This document shows, one piece after another, positions 7,681 to 13,068 of a stretch of 64,000 nt of DNA. The DNA is taken from contig NZ_BMKD01000001.1 in NCBI RefSeq assembly GCF_014643835.1, positions 1,426,001-1,490,000 of the forward strand. The letters run 5' to 3'. Source of the stretch: Mucilaginibacter rubeus. GTDB lineage: Bacteria > Bacteroidota > Bacteroidia > Sphingobacteriales > Sphingobacteriaceae. Below the pieces are notes generated by a model. The model ran no database searches, was not told where the DNA came from, and was given only the letters and a program-made list of their open reading frames with translations. A program made the translations under genes and the position numbers. Numbering within the stretch: position 1 is the first letter of the stretch; every line of letters starts with the position of its first letter.

Positions 7681-8796
7681 ATGAAAACTGAAACTATAGC
7701 GATACATGCCGGCAACCATGTTGATGAAGCAACAAGGGCCGTTATACAACCCATTATTATGTCAACCACTTTTGAGCGCGGTGAGGACGGCGGTTTTCCG
7801 GCAGGTTATATTTACAGTCGCTCATCGAACCCCAATCGTCACGCACTGGAGCATGTGCTGGCAAAGTTAGAGGGAGGTGTTGAAGCAGCTTGCTTTTCAT
7901 CAGGTAATGCGGCCGGGATGTCGGTATTTCAATCATTGGAGCCGGGCACCCATATAATTGCGCCGGATGATATGTATCATGGCTTACGTAATCAGCTTAA
8001 AACCCTTTTTGCCGGGATCCTTACCTTCGATTTTATTGATGTAAACGATACCGGGGTTTTACAACAGCACATCAAGCCCGAAACAGGTTTGATCTGGATT
8101 GAAACACCTTCAAACCCCCTGCTTAAAATAACCGATATTAAAAAGGTGGTTGCTATTGCCAAAGCAAAGGGCATTAAAGTTTTGTGCGATAATACATTTG
8201 CCACCCCTATGTGCCAGCGACCACTTGAGCTGGGCGCGGATATGGTTATGCACTCAGCCACCAAATATTTTGGCGGACATAGCGACCTGATGGGCGGCGT
8301 GTTGATCACGGCCGAAAAGAATGATTGGTGGACAAAAATCCGCCAGGTGCAGGAAATGGGTGGCGCAATCCCCTCGCCTATGGATTGTTATTACTTGGTA
8401 CGCAGTATTAAAACTTTACCATACCGTGTAAAAGGCCACGTACAAAACGCGCAAATGCTTGCCGAATATCTTGAACAGCACCCTCATGTTGAACAGGTAA
8501 TGTACCCCGGTTTGCCCTCGCACCCGCAGCATGAGATAGCTAAAGATCAGATGCTGGCTTTTGGTGGCATGTTATCTTTTACTATTAAGGGCGATGAGAA
8601 CGACACGCATAACATCATCAATAAACTTAAACTATTTATCAAAGCTACCAGCCTTGGTGGTGTTGAAAGCCTAATAGAACACCGCGCTACTGTTGAAGGG
8701 CCGGATACCAAAACACCACGAAACCTGCTAAGGGTTTCGGTTGGGCTGGAACATATTGATGATTTGATTGCCGATATGAAGCAGGCTTTGGCTTAG
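7681..8796 (+). CDS. Trans-sulfuration PLP enzyme, cystathionine gamma-synthase-like
   Basis: 371 residues, Cys/Met metabolism PLP fold. The PLP lysine is Lys195 in HSATKYFGGHSD. YSRSSNPNRHALE supplies the phosphate-binding Tyr/Arg, and VSVGLEHIDDLIADMKQAL is the usual C-terminus. It would convert an activated homoserine plus cysteine to cystathionine, or cleave cystathionine; sequence alone does not separate MetB from MetC/gamma-lyase. It lies just upstream of the SAM-controlled metY operon but outside it, separated by an inverted repeat and a separate promoter region. Confidence 0.88.
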   Translation: MKTETIAIHAGNHVDEATRAVIQPIIMSTTFERGEDGGFPAGYIYSRSSNPNRHALEHVLAKLEGGVEAACFSSGNAAGMSVFQSLEPGTHIIAPDDMYHGLRNQLKTLFAGILTFDFIDVNDTGVLQQHIKPETGLIWIETPSNPLLKITDIKKVVAIAKAKGIKVLCDNTFATPMCQRPLELGADMVMHSATKYFGGHSDLMGGVLITAEKNDWWTKIRQVQEMGGAIPSPMDCYYLVRSIKTLPYRVKGHVQNAQMLAEYLEQHPHVEQVMYPGLPSHPQHEIAKDQMLAFGGMLSFTIKGDENDTHNIINKLKLFIKATSLGGVESLIEHRATVEGPDTKTPRNLLRVSVGLEHIDDLIADMKQALA

Positions 8797-8801
8797 GCCT
8801 T

Positions 8802-8908
8802 TTAAGGTAAAAGGATAAAGGTTAAAGGCGAAAGGTAGCTGCATTTGTCTAAGCTTAAAATTGTTCTCGAATGAACCTTTTGCCTTTGGCCTTTTACCTT
8901 TAACCTTA
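8802..8908. repeat. Imperfect long inverted repeat (AAAGG-rich)
   Basis: A 5' arm of AAGG/AAAGG words at about 8802-8836 is mirrored by a CCTTT-rich arm at about 8875-8908 with few mismatches, around a 38-base loop. It begins 5 bases after the stop of the PLP enzyme and could act as its terminator or as a mobile palindromic repeat. Confidence 0.55.
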
Positions 8909-8921
8909 AAAAGAAATAAAA

Positions 8922-8954
8922 TTTGGTATATTACCTCACAATCCCTTATATTCG
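8922..8954 (+). promoter_or_regulatory. Probable promoter of the metY-metX-hom operon
   Basis: TTTG (8922-8925) is followed after 21 bases by TATATTCG (8947-8954), one mismatch from TAnnTTTG. Transcription would start near 8960, upstream of the SAM riboswitch. Confidence 0.4.
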
Positions 8955-9014
8955 CAACATTATTTGGTAGTGATACCAACGTCGATCAATCCTCCGCACA
9001 TAGTTCGGGTTTTG

Positions 9015-9123
9015 ATTTATAAAGAAGCGGCGAGAGATCAGGCTCAATGACCCGCTGGCAACCCTTCAATGTTGAAGAAGGTGCCAATTCCTGTCCCGGC
9101 AAATAACACCGGGGAATATAAAT
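9015..9123 (+). ncRNA. SAM riboswitch (S-box/SAM-I clan)
   Basis: The core words of the SAM-I aptamer are present in order: an AGAGATCAGGCTCAATGACCC block, the CTGGCAACC of P2/J, then a GGTGCCAATTCCTG block. Closing stem P1 is formed by ATTTATA (9015-9021) with TATAAAT (9117-9123). The small hairpin CTTCAATGTTGAAG (9064-9077) is P3-like and CCCGGcaaataacaCCGGG (9095-9113) is P4-like. It stands upstream of metY, as expected for a methionine-pathway operon. The exact subtype was judged by eye. Confidence 0.88.
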
Positions 9124-9131
9124 TTATAACC

Positions 9132-9242
9132 ATGAAAAGTTTAATTAAATTTACGCAACGCAACACTTTTTACACCTTAAACGGTAACGTACAACATATT
9201 AGCTCCCCTATTAGCTGTATTTGTATGTGTTGCTGCTGTTGA
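9132..9242 (+). CDS. 36-residue leader ORF ending in a cysteine run
   Basis: An ATG 8 bases after riboswitch stem P1 opens a 36-codon frame. It starts MKSLIKFTQRN, has a middle ending ISSPIS, and closes with Cys-Ile-Cys-Met-Cys-Cys-Cys-Cys then TGA. Six of the last eight codons are TGT/TGC and a seventh is Met. Two hairpins follow at once (9250-9282 and 9290-9308). Position and composition suggest a leader peptide whose translation senses charged tRNA-Cys (and perhaps Met) ahead of a sulfur-assimilation operon. Function is inferred. It could be an already catalogued small-protein family, which I cannot check. Confidence 0.6.
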   Translation: MKSLIKFTQRNTFYTLNGNVQHISSPISCICMCCCC

Positions 9243-9249
9243 TGCTTAG

Positions 9250-9308
9250 CACGCTCCTATCTTTCATTTTCTGAAAAGCGTGTGTTAAACCGGTTGTTTT
9301 TAAACCGG
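9250..9308 (+). promoter_or_regulatory. Two hairpins after the leader ORF, possible attenuator
   Basis: CACGCT (9250-9255) pairs with AGCGTG (9277-9282), with inner TTTCA/TGAAA, starting 8 bases after the leader stop. A second hairpin, CCGGTT (9290-9295) with AACCGG (9303-9308), is followed by CTTTCC. The T-tract is weak, so it may be an anti-terminator/terminator pair or a stability element. Confidence 0.4.
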
Positions 9309-9355
9309 CTTTCCAAATTCATCTAAACATTCAAAATCTAAATTAAACACATTAA

Positions 9356-10687
<1,332 letters not shown>

Positions 10688-10777: not shown

Positions 10778-11833
10778 ATGAACGCAGAGATATTTAAATA
10801 CACTGATACTTTTGAATTTGAATCGGGCCGTACAATTGAAGGTTTAGAAATAGGTTTTCACACTTATGGCCGGTTAAATAAGGAAAAAAATAACATTGTT
10901 TGGGTTTGCCATGCGCTTACTGCCAACAGCGATGTATTTGACTGGTGGAAAGGGCTTATTGGCGAGGGGTATTTTTTTAACCCGGAAGAGCATTTTATAG
11001 TTTGCGCCAATATTTTGGGTTCTCCTTACGGCACTACAAGTCCGTTGAGCATTAACCCGGTTACCGGCCAGCCATATTATCTTTCATATCCCCAGTTTAC
11101 TACAAGGGATATGGTTAAAGCGCACCAGTTGCTTGCCCAGCATTTAAACATTAATAATATCAGTGTATTAATTGGAGGTTCATTAGGCGGCCAGCAGGCT
11201 ATGGAATGGGCTATTATTGAACCGGAGCGCATCAAAAATCTTATTCTGATAGCAACTAATGCCAAGCATTCACCATGGGGCATTGCCTTTAACGAGTCGC
11301 AACGTTTGGCTATCACTACCGACCGCACCTTTTACAGCAATACGCCCGAAGGCGGTCAGAAAGGCTTAAAAGCTGCGCGCAGTATCGCGCTTTTAAGTTA
11401 TCGTACTTATAAAACTTACGGCATTACCCAGCAGGAAGAAGCCGACGATGTGCAGGACAATTTCCGCTCTTCATCGTACCAAAATTACCAGGGGCAAAAG
11501 CTGGTGAACCGCTTTAACGCCTATAGTTATTGGTACCTGACCAAAGTGATGGACTCACACAATGTGGGCCGGGGCCGTCACGGTGTAGATAAAGCGTTGA
11601 GCCTCATCAAGGCAAAAACATTAGTTATCGGCATCTCGTCGGATGTTTTATTCCCTGTTGAAGAACAGCAATACCTGTTCAGGCATATCCCAAAAGCTGC
11701 CTTTTCCGAGCTGGATTCGTTTTATGGGCACGATGGATTTTTAATTGAAACAGAAGCATTAACAAAAATATTCACATCATTTTTTAAAACCGATGTGAAA
11801 GGAAAAATTATAGAACTGCAACGTACAGCGTAA
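10778..11833 (+). CDS. metX: Homoserine O-acetyltransferase
   Basis: 351 residues, alpha/beta-hydrolase fold of the MetX family. The nucleophile elbow GGSLGGQQAMEW places Ser135. The Asp is in GISSDVLFPVEEQ and the His in FYGHDGFLIE, completing the triad. It transfers acetyl from acetyl-CoA to homoserine, giving the MetY substrate. The stop shares one base with the hom start (TAATG), so the two are coupled. A succinyltransferase activity cannot be excluded from sequence, but MetY next door favours acetyl. Confidence 0.94.
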   Translation: MNAEIFKYTDTFEFESGRTIEGLEIGFHTYGRLNKEKNNIVWVCHALTANSDVFDWWKGLIGEGYFFNPEEHFIVCANILGSPYGTTSPLSINPVTGQPYYLSYPQFTTRDMVKAHQLLAQHLNINNISVLIGGSLGGQQAMEWAIIEPERIKNLILIATNAKHSPWGIAFNESQRLAITTDRTFYSNTPEGGQKGLKAARSIALLSYRTYKTYGITQQEEADDVQDNFRSSSYQNYQGQKLVNRFNAYSYWYLTKVMDSHNVGRGRHGVDKALSLIKAKTLVIGISSDVLFPVEEQQYLFRHIPKAAFSELDSFYGHDGFLIETEALTKIFTSFFKTDVKGKIIELQRTA

Positions 11834-13068
11834 TGAGTAAAAAGTTAAATATCGGCCTCTTCGGATTTGGAGTTGTTGGCCAGGGGTTATATGATATCAT
11901 CAAAACAAAGCATTTAAATATCGAGATAGTAAAATTTGCTATTAAAGACCCTAATAAAAAACGTTCTTTACCGGCACATTTATTTACTACCGACAAAGAA
12001 GAACTGCTTAATAACCCGGAGATCAATACCATTGTTGAACTGATCAATGATACCGAAGCTGCTTTTGAAATTGTTTCAAGAGCATTAAAATCAGGCAAAA
12101 ATGTAGTATCTGCAAGTAAAAAAATGATCGCCCTGCATTTGGACGAACTGATCGAAATTCAGCATCAATACGGCACATCATTATTATATGAAGGCGCTGT
12201 TTGCGGTAGTATCCCTATTATCCGCAATTTGGAAGAATATTATGATAATGAACTACTGCATTCAATCAGCGGTATTTTCAATGGCTCATCAAACTATATC
12301 CTTTCAAAAGGCTTTATTGAAGGGCTCGATTATGATAGCGCATTGAAACAAGCCCAGGACCTGGGTTTTGCCGAAACCGACCCAACCAGTGATGTTGGTG
12401 GTTTTGACGCCAAATACAAGCTGGTTATTGCCGCAGCGCACGCTTATGGTGTAGTTGTACAGCCCGATGAGGTATTTAACCTGGGCATTCAGAACCTTGC
12501 AGCTGCCGATTTGCAATATGCCCGCGAAAAGAACCTCAAAATTAAACTGGTGCCGGTAGCCAAAGAACTTGACGACCGCAACGTTGCCCTGTTTGTATTA
12601 CCTAAGTTTGTAAACGACAAAGAGTTTTTATACAACGTTGAGTATGAATATAATGGCGTAACTGTACAAGCTGCCTTTGCCGATCAGCAATTCTTTTTCG
12701 GGAAAGGCGCGGGCGGCCATCCTACCGGTTCGGCTGTACTGTCGGATATTGCGGCGCTGCGCTATAACTACCAGTACGAATACAAAAAAGCTAAAGAGAA
12801 AACAGACCTTAATTTTACCAATAACATTGAATTAACCATTTACCTGCGTTATGATGACGAGGAACTGGTTGAAGCGCTGAACTTTGAGCATATCAATGAG
12901 CGCTACTATTCAGGTAATTATAAATTTGTGATAGGAAAAATCAATTTGCAAAATCTGATCGCTAATCAACATCGTATATCTGAGAGTAAGGCTTTCGTAG
13001 CCTTTGCCGATCAGCTTACGGGGGTCAGCTTAGCATCGGTAACTAAACAAGCGGCCGAAGTGTTTTAA
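11833..13068 (+). CDS. hom: Homoserine dehydrogenase
   Basis: 411 residues. The N-terminal Rossmann domain has LFGFGVVGQGLY (about residues 8-19). The catalytic domain has SGIFNGSSNYIL and LGFAETDPTSDVGGFDAKYKLVIAA, the conserved homoserine-dehydrogenase signature with its active-site aspartate and lysine. A divergent C-terminal part of ~80 residues follows in place of a clear ACT domain. It reduces aspartate semialdehyde to homoserine. Being in the SAM-controlled operon, it would supply homoserine for methionine, and there is no fused aspartokinase here. Confidence 0.95.
   Translation: MSKKLNIGLFGFGVVGQGLYDIIKTKHLNIEIVKFAIKDPNKKRSLPAHLFTTDKEELLNNPEINTIVELINDTEAAFEIVSRALKSGKNVVSASKKMIALHLDELIEIQHQYGTSLLYEGAVCGSIPIIRNLEEYYDNELLHSISGIFNGSSNYILSKGFIEGLDYDSALKQAQDLGFAETDPTSDVGGFDAKYKLVIAAAHAYGVVVQPDEVFNLGIQNLAAADLQYAREKNLKIKLVPVAKELDDRNVALFVLPKFVNDKEFLYNVEYEYNGVTVQAAFADQQFFFGKGAGGHPTGSAVLSDIAALRYNYQYEYKKAKEKTDLNFTNNIELTIYLRYDDEELVEALNFEHINERYYSGNYKFVIGKINLQNLIANQHRISESKAFVAFADQLTGVSLASVTKQAAEVF

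Follow-up and report, generated by a model that had tools for sequence, protein, structure and literature searches.

A SAM-I riboswitch and a cysteine-run upstream ORF ahead of metY: a predicted two-input leader in Bacteroidota

In the stretch of DNA analysed here (64,000 nucleotides, hereafter the window), the leader of metY holds a SAM riboswitch and, directly behind it, a short open reading frame whose last codons form a cysteine run. The question raised by this arrangement is whether the upstream ORF (uORF) is a leader peptide that senses cysteine and, if so, how it relates to the aptamer in front of it. A preliminary description of the window had placed a possible cysteine sensor in series with the SAM sensor, and had let this reading depend on whether relatives carrying that riboswitch conserve the ORF and its Cys run. 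Riboswitches and ribosome-read leader peptides tend to be regarded as alternatives. Here both stand in fixed geometry before the same gene, and this geometry recurs in many genera of a phylum without Shine-Dalgarno sites (PMC6847099).

Layout of the metY leader in the window

The MetY encoded in the window is 96% identical to that of M. endophyticus, and the window is close to Mucilaginibacter. The features of the locus are collected in Table 1. The aptamer matches the Rfam model over its full length (model positions 1–108) at 80.1 bits, where the gathering score is 44.4, and by this score it is a member of the SAM-I riboswitches. Seven bases separate its end from the start codon, so that the uORF begins at the eighth base past the aptamer; it ends with a TGA at 9240–9242 and would encode the peptide MKSLIKFTQRNTFYTLNGNVQHISSPISCICMCCCC. 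In the mechanical ORF list the same frame is also open from an earlier in-frame ATG at 9069, within the aptamer. Over both strands of the 64 kb, the uORF is the sole ATG-initiated ORF of 10–70 amino acids with at least four Cys in its last 10 codons. The order given in the preliminary description, with a riboswitch directly before a 36-codon ORF, a Cys-rich ORF end, two hairpins and metY–metX–hom on the same strand, is borne out in every element. The best NCBIfam match of the metX-like product scores 350.2, below the cut-off of 500. The fold downstream of the uORF has a z-score of −3.7 against dinucleotide shuffles. The distance from the uORF stop to the metY ATG at 9368 is 125 nt, and the part of it that follows hairpin 2 is, by eye, a G-poor stretch.

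Table 1. Features of the metY leader and the neighbouring genes, in window coordinates
Feature	Position	Strand	Basis
Cys/Met-metabolism PLP-enzyme gene	7681–8796		PF01053; upstream of the metY leader
Candidate Bacteroidota-type promoter	8922–8954	+	TTTG at 8922–8925, TATATTCG at 8947–8954; by eye
SAM-I riboswitch aptamer	9014–9124	+	Rfam RF00162; P1 strands 9014–9021 and 9117–9124
Predicted leader peptide uORF	9132–9242	+	36 codons, ATG 7 nt 3' of P1
Cys/Met codon cluster CICMCCCC	9216–9239	+	C-terminal end of uORF
Hairpin 1	9246–9288	+	Fold; begins 3 nt past uORF stop
Hairpin 2 (CCGGTT / AACCGG)	9290–9308	+	Fold; p 0.03 in the window against shuffles
metY, O-acetylhomoserine sulfhydrylase family	9368–10687	+	PF01053; TIGR01326 678.1 bits, cut-off 495.1
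metX-like, homoserine O-acetyltransferase	10778–11833	+	PF00561; TIGR01392 best NCBIfam match
hom, homoserine dehydrogenase	11833–13068	+	PF00742; NF004976 over cut-off

Upstream of the aptamer, the TTTG of the candidate promoter is presumably the −33 box of a Bacteroidota-type promoter. A promoter box of the form TAnnTTTG is quoted in PMC9723704. Between the PLP-enzyme gene and the metY leader lies an imperfect inverted repeat, AAGGTAAAAGG ... CCTTTTACCTTTAACCTT (8804–8907), which could be the terminator of the upstream gene or a dispersed palindrome; seven strings taken from it have no further copy within the window.

Start position and cysteine run in related leaders

The first sample comprised 80 metY loci from GTDB species, 70 of them with a SAM riboswitch in the leader. 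In the ten excluded loci a SAM riboswitch was either not found (L041, L077, L102, L103, L106) or found only more than 1 kb upstream (L073, L090), or there is little or no upstream DNA (L059, L064, L076). One further locus, with only 34 nt between aptamer and metY (L067), was dropped, which leaves 69 leaders, or 70 with that of the window. In all 70 an ATG lies 4–14 nt past the 3' end of P1, most commonly at 7 nt (19 leaders) or 9 nt (23 leaders), and the aptamer is thus placed where initiation of the uORF could be controlled. Of 14409 equally wide control windows taken elsewhere in these leaders, 2039 (14.2%) hold an ATG, and an ATG at this distance is present at 3 of 27 SAM riboswitches located away from metY. 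The ORF that starts from the P1-adjacent ATG has at least 18 codons in 69 of the 70 leaders, against 37 of 180 ORFs that start from other ATGs of the leaders. The P1-adjacent uORF start in SAM–metY leaders is not a product of chance. A at −3 is found in 45 of the 70 starts and A at −6 in 41. Initiation determinants matching A at these two positions are reported for Flavobacterium johnsoniae, where Shine-Dalgarno sites are absent and structure around the start codon reduces initiation (PMC6847099).

The peptide end is less uniform. At least four Cys occur among the last 10 codons in 40 of the 69 leaders (41 of 70 with the window) when the sense strand is read, and in none of the 69 in antisense; with the threshold lowered to three Cys, 50 leaders qualify in sense and 6 in antisense. 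In the 41 peptides Cys makes up 57.6% and Met 9.5% of the last 10 codons, against 2.8% and 1.5% of the remaining body. The length of these peptides ranges from 27 to 57 amino acids, the sequence of the body is not conserved, and searches of Pfam and NCBIfam gave no match to the uORF peptide. All 41 leaders have an ATG 5–14 nt past P1 that shares the frame of the Cys tail; in L065 the nearest ATG, 4 nt from P1, is out of frame with the tail and the in-frame ATG lies at 8 nt. The other 29 of the 70 leaders also have a uORF with a P1-adjacent ATG, with fewer than four Cys in its last 10 codons.

The 40 Cys-tail leaders include those of Pedobacter, Hymenobacter, Pontibacter, Chryseolinea and Rufibacter, and Sphingobacterium, Algoriphagus, Cyclobacterium and the one Spirosoma locus fall below the four-Cys threshold. 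Six of nine Sphingobacterium metY uORFs (L068, L072, L074, L075, L081, L107) have a P1-adjacent start and end in RMR, with no Cys run. On a MetY tree of 126 rows, which left out L059, L064, L076 and L251, there are at least 17 changes of the Cys-rich state, so the tail is not fixed but often lost or gained.

Within the window's genus the picture is more consistent. Among 37 genomes, 36 gave a metY match (G035 gave none at the cut-off used), and these 36 loci share at least five species with the 80 loci above. Upstream of metY, all 36 carry the ORF and a SAM core motif. The last 12 codons of the ORF include at least four Cys in 34 of them, and three (G034) or two (G015) in the others. Over 37 non-redundant leaders of the genus, including that of the window, the last codon encodes Cys in 36 (TGT in 23, TGC in 13), as does the penultimate codon (TGT in 16, TGC in 20), and TGT and TGC replace each other at aligned positions. 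Within the peptide it is the Cys tail that is best conserved across the genus, while the bodies vary widely. Because the bodies differ and the two codons interchange, the Cys codons themselves seem to be under selection, rather than a conserved protein or a conserved string of RNA. The conservation on which the earlier reading was made to depend is thus found throughout the genus as regards the ORF, and in nearly all of its loci as regards the Cys run, which also extends well beyond the genus.

A class-wide sample, obtained by a protein search over 119 genomes, yielded 22 metY loci, and the 20 outside the window's genus were examined; two of its genomes (G038, G051) also belong to the earlier sets, and its genera may overlap with those of the first sample. 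A SAM riboswitch is present at metY in 12 of the 20. In 10 of these 12 an ATG lies 7–15 nt past P1; in the remaining two it lies 2 nt past P1 (L238) or overlaps the annotated end of the aptamer (L241). At least four Cys near the stop are found in 9 of the 12, and the other three have three (L241), two (L232) and none (L231).

Not every SAM–metY leader is built in this way. In family f26, which we take to be Flavobacteriaceae, an ATG is present in the post-P1 interval in 1 of 20 SAM–metY leaders (20 of the 22 loci with the SAM core motif were used for this count), and a uORF with at least five Met plus Cys in 12 codons is found in none of the 22. Since SAM–metY leaders without the ORF exist in f26, the uORF is not a mere by-product of a SAM riboswitch standing before metY. 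SAM-II riboswitch matches occur at five f26 loci (L253, L254, L262, L263, L271), within about half a kilobase of the metY SAM-I riboswitch and on the other strand.

Leaders without the aptamer and Cys-run uORFs before other genes

Several metY loci lack the riboswitch and carry a uORF of related composition. In the class-wide sample, 6 of the 8 loci without a SAM riboswitch at metY have Met- and Cys-rich uORFs (L235, L237, L240, L242, L247, L248), and such a uORF is absent from the other two (L245, L246). The first sample contributes five riboswitch-less loci: the uORF is of the Cys-run kind in L106 and Met-rich in L103, and L041, L077 and L102 have neither kind. Of seven f26 loci without the SAM core motif, three (L249, L270, L277) have Met-rich uORFs and four have none. 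Behind the uORF of L247 lies a terminator-like stem of 12 bp followed by a T run (one found, against a mean of 0.1 in shuffles), a similar stem and T run were recognized by eye in L248, which is of the same genus, and a terminator-like stem also lies behind the Met-rich uORF of L270.

In the raw counts, Met codons are more frequent where the aptamer is missing. Given at least five Met plus Cys, the mean Met count is 4.25 without SAM (n = 8) and 1.5 with SAM (n = 52), and at least four Met in 12 codons occur in 10 of 21 rows without SAM as against 3 of 105 with SAM, the latter being a raw contrast; a Mann-Whitney comparison on a smaller set gives p 7e-6. When the exchange of aptamer and Met codons is examined with a tree-aware test on 10 independent pairs, the median p is 0.625, with 3.6 pairs in the opposite direction, 1.1 in the same direction and 5.2 with no difference. 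Neither a Met-rich nor a Cys-rich uORF is present in 10 of the 21 rows without SAM. Substitution of Met codons for the SAM aptamer is thus only a lead, and not significant once corrected for the tree. A broader proposal, which we regard as tentative, is that the expression platform of the SAM-I riboswitch could be the leader-peptide attenuator itself, with the methionine input supplied over evolution by either the aptamer or Met codons, and with the Cys codons often kept.

Cys-run uORFs also occur before genes other than metY. The pattern of four Cys codons and a stop was rejected as too loose, with many matches within larger ORFs. Cys-Met-Cys4-stop was found in 5 of 296 genomes of a phylum sample, three of them in the window's genus, and not in the reversed control. 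Met-Cys4-stop gave 22 matches in 20 of 151 genomes of an order sample, again with none in the reversed control, and 11 of the 22 are metY leaders. The exact Cys-Met-Cys4 string is a habit of the genus, and it is the looser architecture that is widespread. Another nine matches of the second pattern, every one from the window's genus, can plausibly be read as uORFs and have no SAM core motif; two (L206, L219) are frames of 5–6 codons that probably match by chance. A Peptidase_S10-like gene follows the uORF in L201, as assigned by Pfam, and in L207, L210 and L212, as assigned by likeness of the first residues; L204 is a presumed variant of this group. Other Cys-run uORFs without SAM precede TonB-receptor genes (L203, L218) and AhpC/TSA-family genes (L220, L221). 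Because such uORFs stand before other genes without a SAM input, a Cys-responsive role becomes more likely, and the examples at AhpC/TSA-family and TonB-receptor genes suggest that the Cys-responsive set is wider.

Some of these loci show further arrangements. The uORFs of L201, L207, L210 and L212 are nearly alike, end in VMCCCC and lie 61 nt before similar long ORFs. At two Mucilaginibacter-group loci (L141, L159) an AhpC/TSA-family gene is preceded by a tandem pair of Cys-ending uORFs, with no SAM core motif; the second uORF was read by eye, and the AhpC/TSA domain is shown for L159. At L027 an AhpC/TSA-family gene sits behind a SAM riboswitch. L005 has a SAM riboswitch and then, at a distance and with P1 not abutting it, a Cys-run uORF ending in MPAMCCCC before a TonB-receptor gene. 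Outside the window's family, L222 carries a SAM core motif and a Cys-run uORF before an OsmC-family gene ahead of metY.

Predicted regulation, rival explanations and precedents

Between the uORF and metY, structure is a general feature of the genus: the 88 nt past the uORF stop have a mean z of −2.4 against shuffles over 37 leaders, with 32 below −1. The outer stem of hairpin 1 is paired in 97.2% of cells over 29 sequences, a value reached in 1 of 500 shuffles. Seven cells show double changes (1 of 500 shuffles), located in 2 pairs (54 of 500), and the six further pair types are not above shuffles (473 of 500). The alignment used 29 of 38 sequences, and omission of the other nine, which are divergent in hairpin 1 or from outside the genus, biases the count in favour of hairpin 1. 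Hairpin 2 has 32 distinct left stems in the 37 leaders with pairing kept, and 10 of the 37 reach p 0.05 and 22 reach p 0.2 against shuffles. The compensatory changes that the preliminary description had looked to in the hairpins are therefore present to some extent in hairpin 1; in hairpin 2 pairing is maintained with changed sequence, and the support is weaker.

An intrinsic terminator was considered and rejected for the window leader, with no terminator-like site in 8850–9400, and no U-tract follows hairpin 1 or hairpin 2 in the window. Because the two hairpins do not overlap, a textbook exchange of antiterminator and terminator is not visible. The window leader is not an intrinsic-terminator attenuator; stems of that kind are present in the riboswitch-less L247 and L270. 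Single folds suggested that the Cys codons pair at long range with the start region of metY or with other RNA downstream; for the window this was rejected, at p 0.86 against dinucleotide shuffles. Over 72 leaders the mean z for such complementarity is −0.37 and 10 reach p 0.05, eight of them outside Mucilaginibacter; beyond the window's genus, certain leaders allow the Cys codons to pair with RNA lying about 20–70 nt past the stop. Rho-dependent termination in the window's genus is a guess.

The explanation that we favour, and consider fairly likely from comparison of sequences, is a two-input attenuator in which SAM gates the initiation of a leader peptide that senses Cys-tRNA. It draws on the position of the SAM-I P1 a few nucleotides 5' of the uORF start and on the run of Cys codons, often with Met, before the stop. 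In the window P1 spans about −8 to −15 relative to the uORF start, and because it covers this region SAM binding is expected to block initiation. At high SAM, P1 would form and cover the upstream part of the initiation region, the uORF would go untranslated and metY–metX–hom would be off. At low SAM the uORF would be translated, and the progress of the ribosome through the Cys codons would read the charging of Cys-tRNA, which would set the downstream state and hence expression of the operon. The window leader would then work like a Cys-codon leader attenuator placed under a SAM aptamer, and the tandem probably reads methionine and cysteine supply jointly. The two sensors that had been described as lying in series are indeed arranged in that order; since P1 abuts the start codon of the uORF, they are probably coupled and not merely serial. 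Stalling at the Cys codons raising expression is the likelier sign, by analogy with the riboswitch-less Met/Cys-codon leaders that precede intrinsic terminators. Several observations weigh against the two-input reading: the window leader has no intrinsic terminator and no visible antiterminator exchange, pairing of its Cys codons with downstream RNA does not exceed that of shuffles, 29 of the 70 leaders keep the uORF without the four-Cys tail, the Cys-rich state often changes on the tree, and the exchange of aptamer for Met codons loses significance there.

The same device with the opposite Cys sign is the strongest of the rival explanations, although we judge it unlikely. Completed translation of the uORF would here keep the operon on, and either stalling at the Cys codons or failure to initiate at high SAM would let hairpin 1 form and turn it off, so that methionine synthesis would require both low SAM and adequate cysteine. 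Hairpin 1 begins so close to the stop codon that a terminating ribosome would cover its 5' arm, whereas a ribosome stalled upstream, or none at all, would leave it free, and the untranslated state would match the SAM-bound off state. MetY and cysteine synthesis also both consume sulfide, which fits this logic. However, Met codons share the Cys cluster in riboswitch-less relatives, an arrangement that makes most sense if stalling means on, and the terminator-like stems of L247 and L270 point the same way.

It is less likely still, and in our estimate distinctly improbable, that the uORF is no more than a translational platform of the riboswitch, its translation being of consequence and its Cys codons no longer sensing. 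This would account for a start position kept in all 70 leaders when the Cys tail is kept in 41, and for the Sphingobacterium uORFs that end in RMR (six of nine). A similar case is the leader of M. tuberculosis ppe2, which is translated under riboswitch control and for which the main text of PMC11260477 makes no mention of cysteine. Against such a platform stand the Cys tail, better conserved within the genus than any other part of the peptide and with its two codons interchanging, and the Cys-run uORFs that precede other genes of that genus in the absence of the riboswitch.

Considerably weaker is the idea of a functional small Cys-rich protein, for instance one that binds metals or thiols. 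Poly-Cys tails could bind metals and the reading frame is conserved, but we consider this very unlikely given a body that is conserved neither in sequence nor in length, the lack of any match in Pfam or NCBIfam, and an ORF whose place is fixed relative to the riboswitch that precedes metY. That the UGY repeat is kept by chance or for base pairing, with the frame incidental, is the most improbable explanation of all: it would fit the downstream pairing of Cys codons possible in some non-genus leaders (the 10 of 72), but not the absence of antisense Cys tails, the P1-adjacent ATG in frame with every tail or the interchange of TGT and TGC.

The SAM-gated, cysteine-reading leader that we favour has precedents for each of its halves, and no description of a SAM-I riboswitch in tandem with a Cys-run leader was found in the CC-licensed PMC literature. 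Classical attenuation employs a short ORF with codons for the sensed amino acid ahead of biosynthesis genes (PMC9971707). The window differs in having a metabolite aptamer 5' of the start codon, and neither a U-tract terminator nor a visible antiterminator exchange. In mycobacteria, polycysteine leaderless short ORFs upstream of an operon are described as a cysteine-responsive attenuator (Canestrari et al. 2020, cited in PMC9094748 and PMC13236596). The window shares with these a short Cys-run ORF upstream of an operon, and is set apart by the SAM aptamer 5' of the ORF, the two hairpins after it and its origin in Bacteroidota; with an aptamer directly preceding the start codon, the uORF is predicted not to be leaderless and on that ground is not a member of that class. 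A conserved Cys-codon uORF before cysS in Rhodobacterales, uORFC-8-2, is a predicted ribosome-mediated attenuator (PMC8632094). Unlike the window leader, it has two tandem Cys codons and an intrinsic terminator, is without a riboswitch and belongs to alpha-proteobacteria. Within the same phylum, clues for leader-peptide attenuation before amino-acid operons are given for F. psychrophilum (PMC9723704), and short ORFs in 5' UTRs of B. thetaiotaomicron are likened to leader peptides (PMC7366714); the main-text passages concerned contain neither a SAM riboswitch combined with a leader peptide nor a Cys run.

The natural variants found ahead of metY, with aptamer and uORF, aptamer alone, or Met/Cys uORF alone, make the logic of the leader testable. 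Aptamer and uORF also stand together at metE and ppe2 of M. tuberculosis, where B12 riboswitches occur with uORFs and the ppe2 leader is reported to be riboswitch-controlled, its translation being essential for the gene (PMC11260477). Riboswitch and uORF are joined there in one leader as they are in the window, with translation reported in the one case and predicted in the other. The M. tuberculosis aptamers bind B12 and the ppe2 leader has an overlapping stop and start, whereas the window has a SAM-I aptamer and a Cys-run tail, and the gap between its uORF and metY sets it apart from termination-reinitiation of the ppe2 type.
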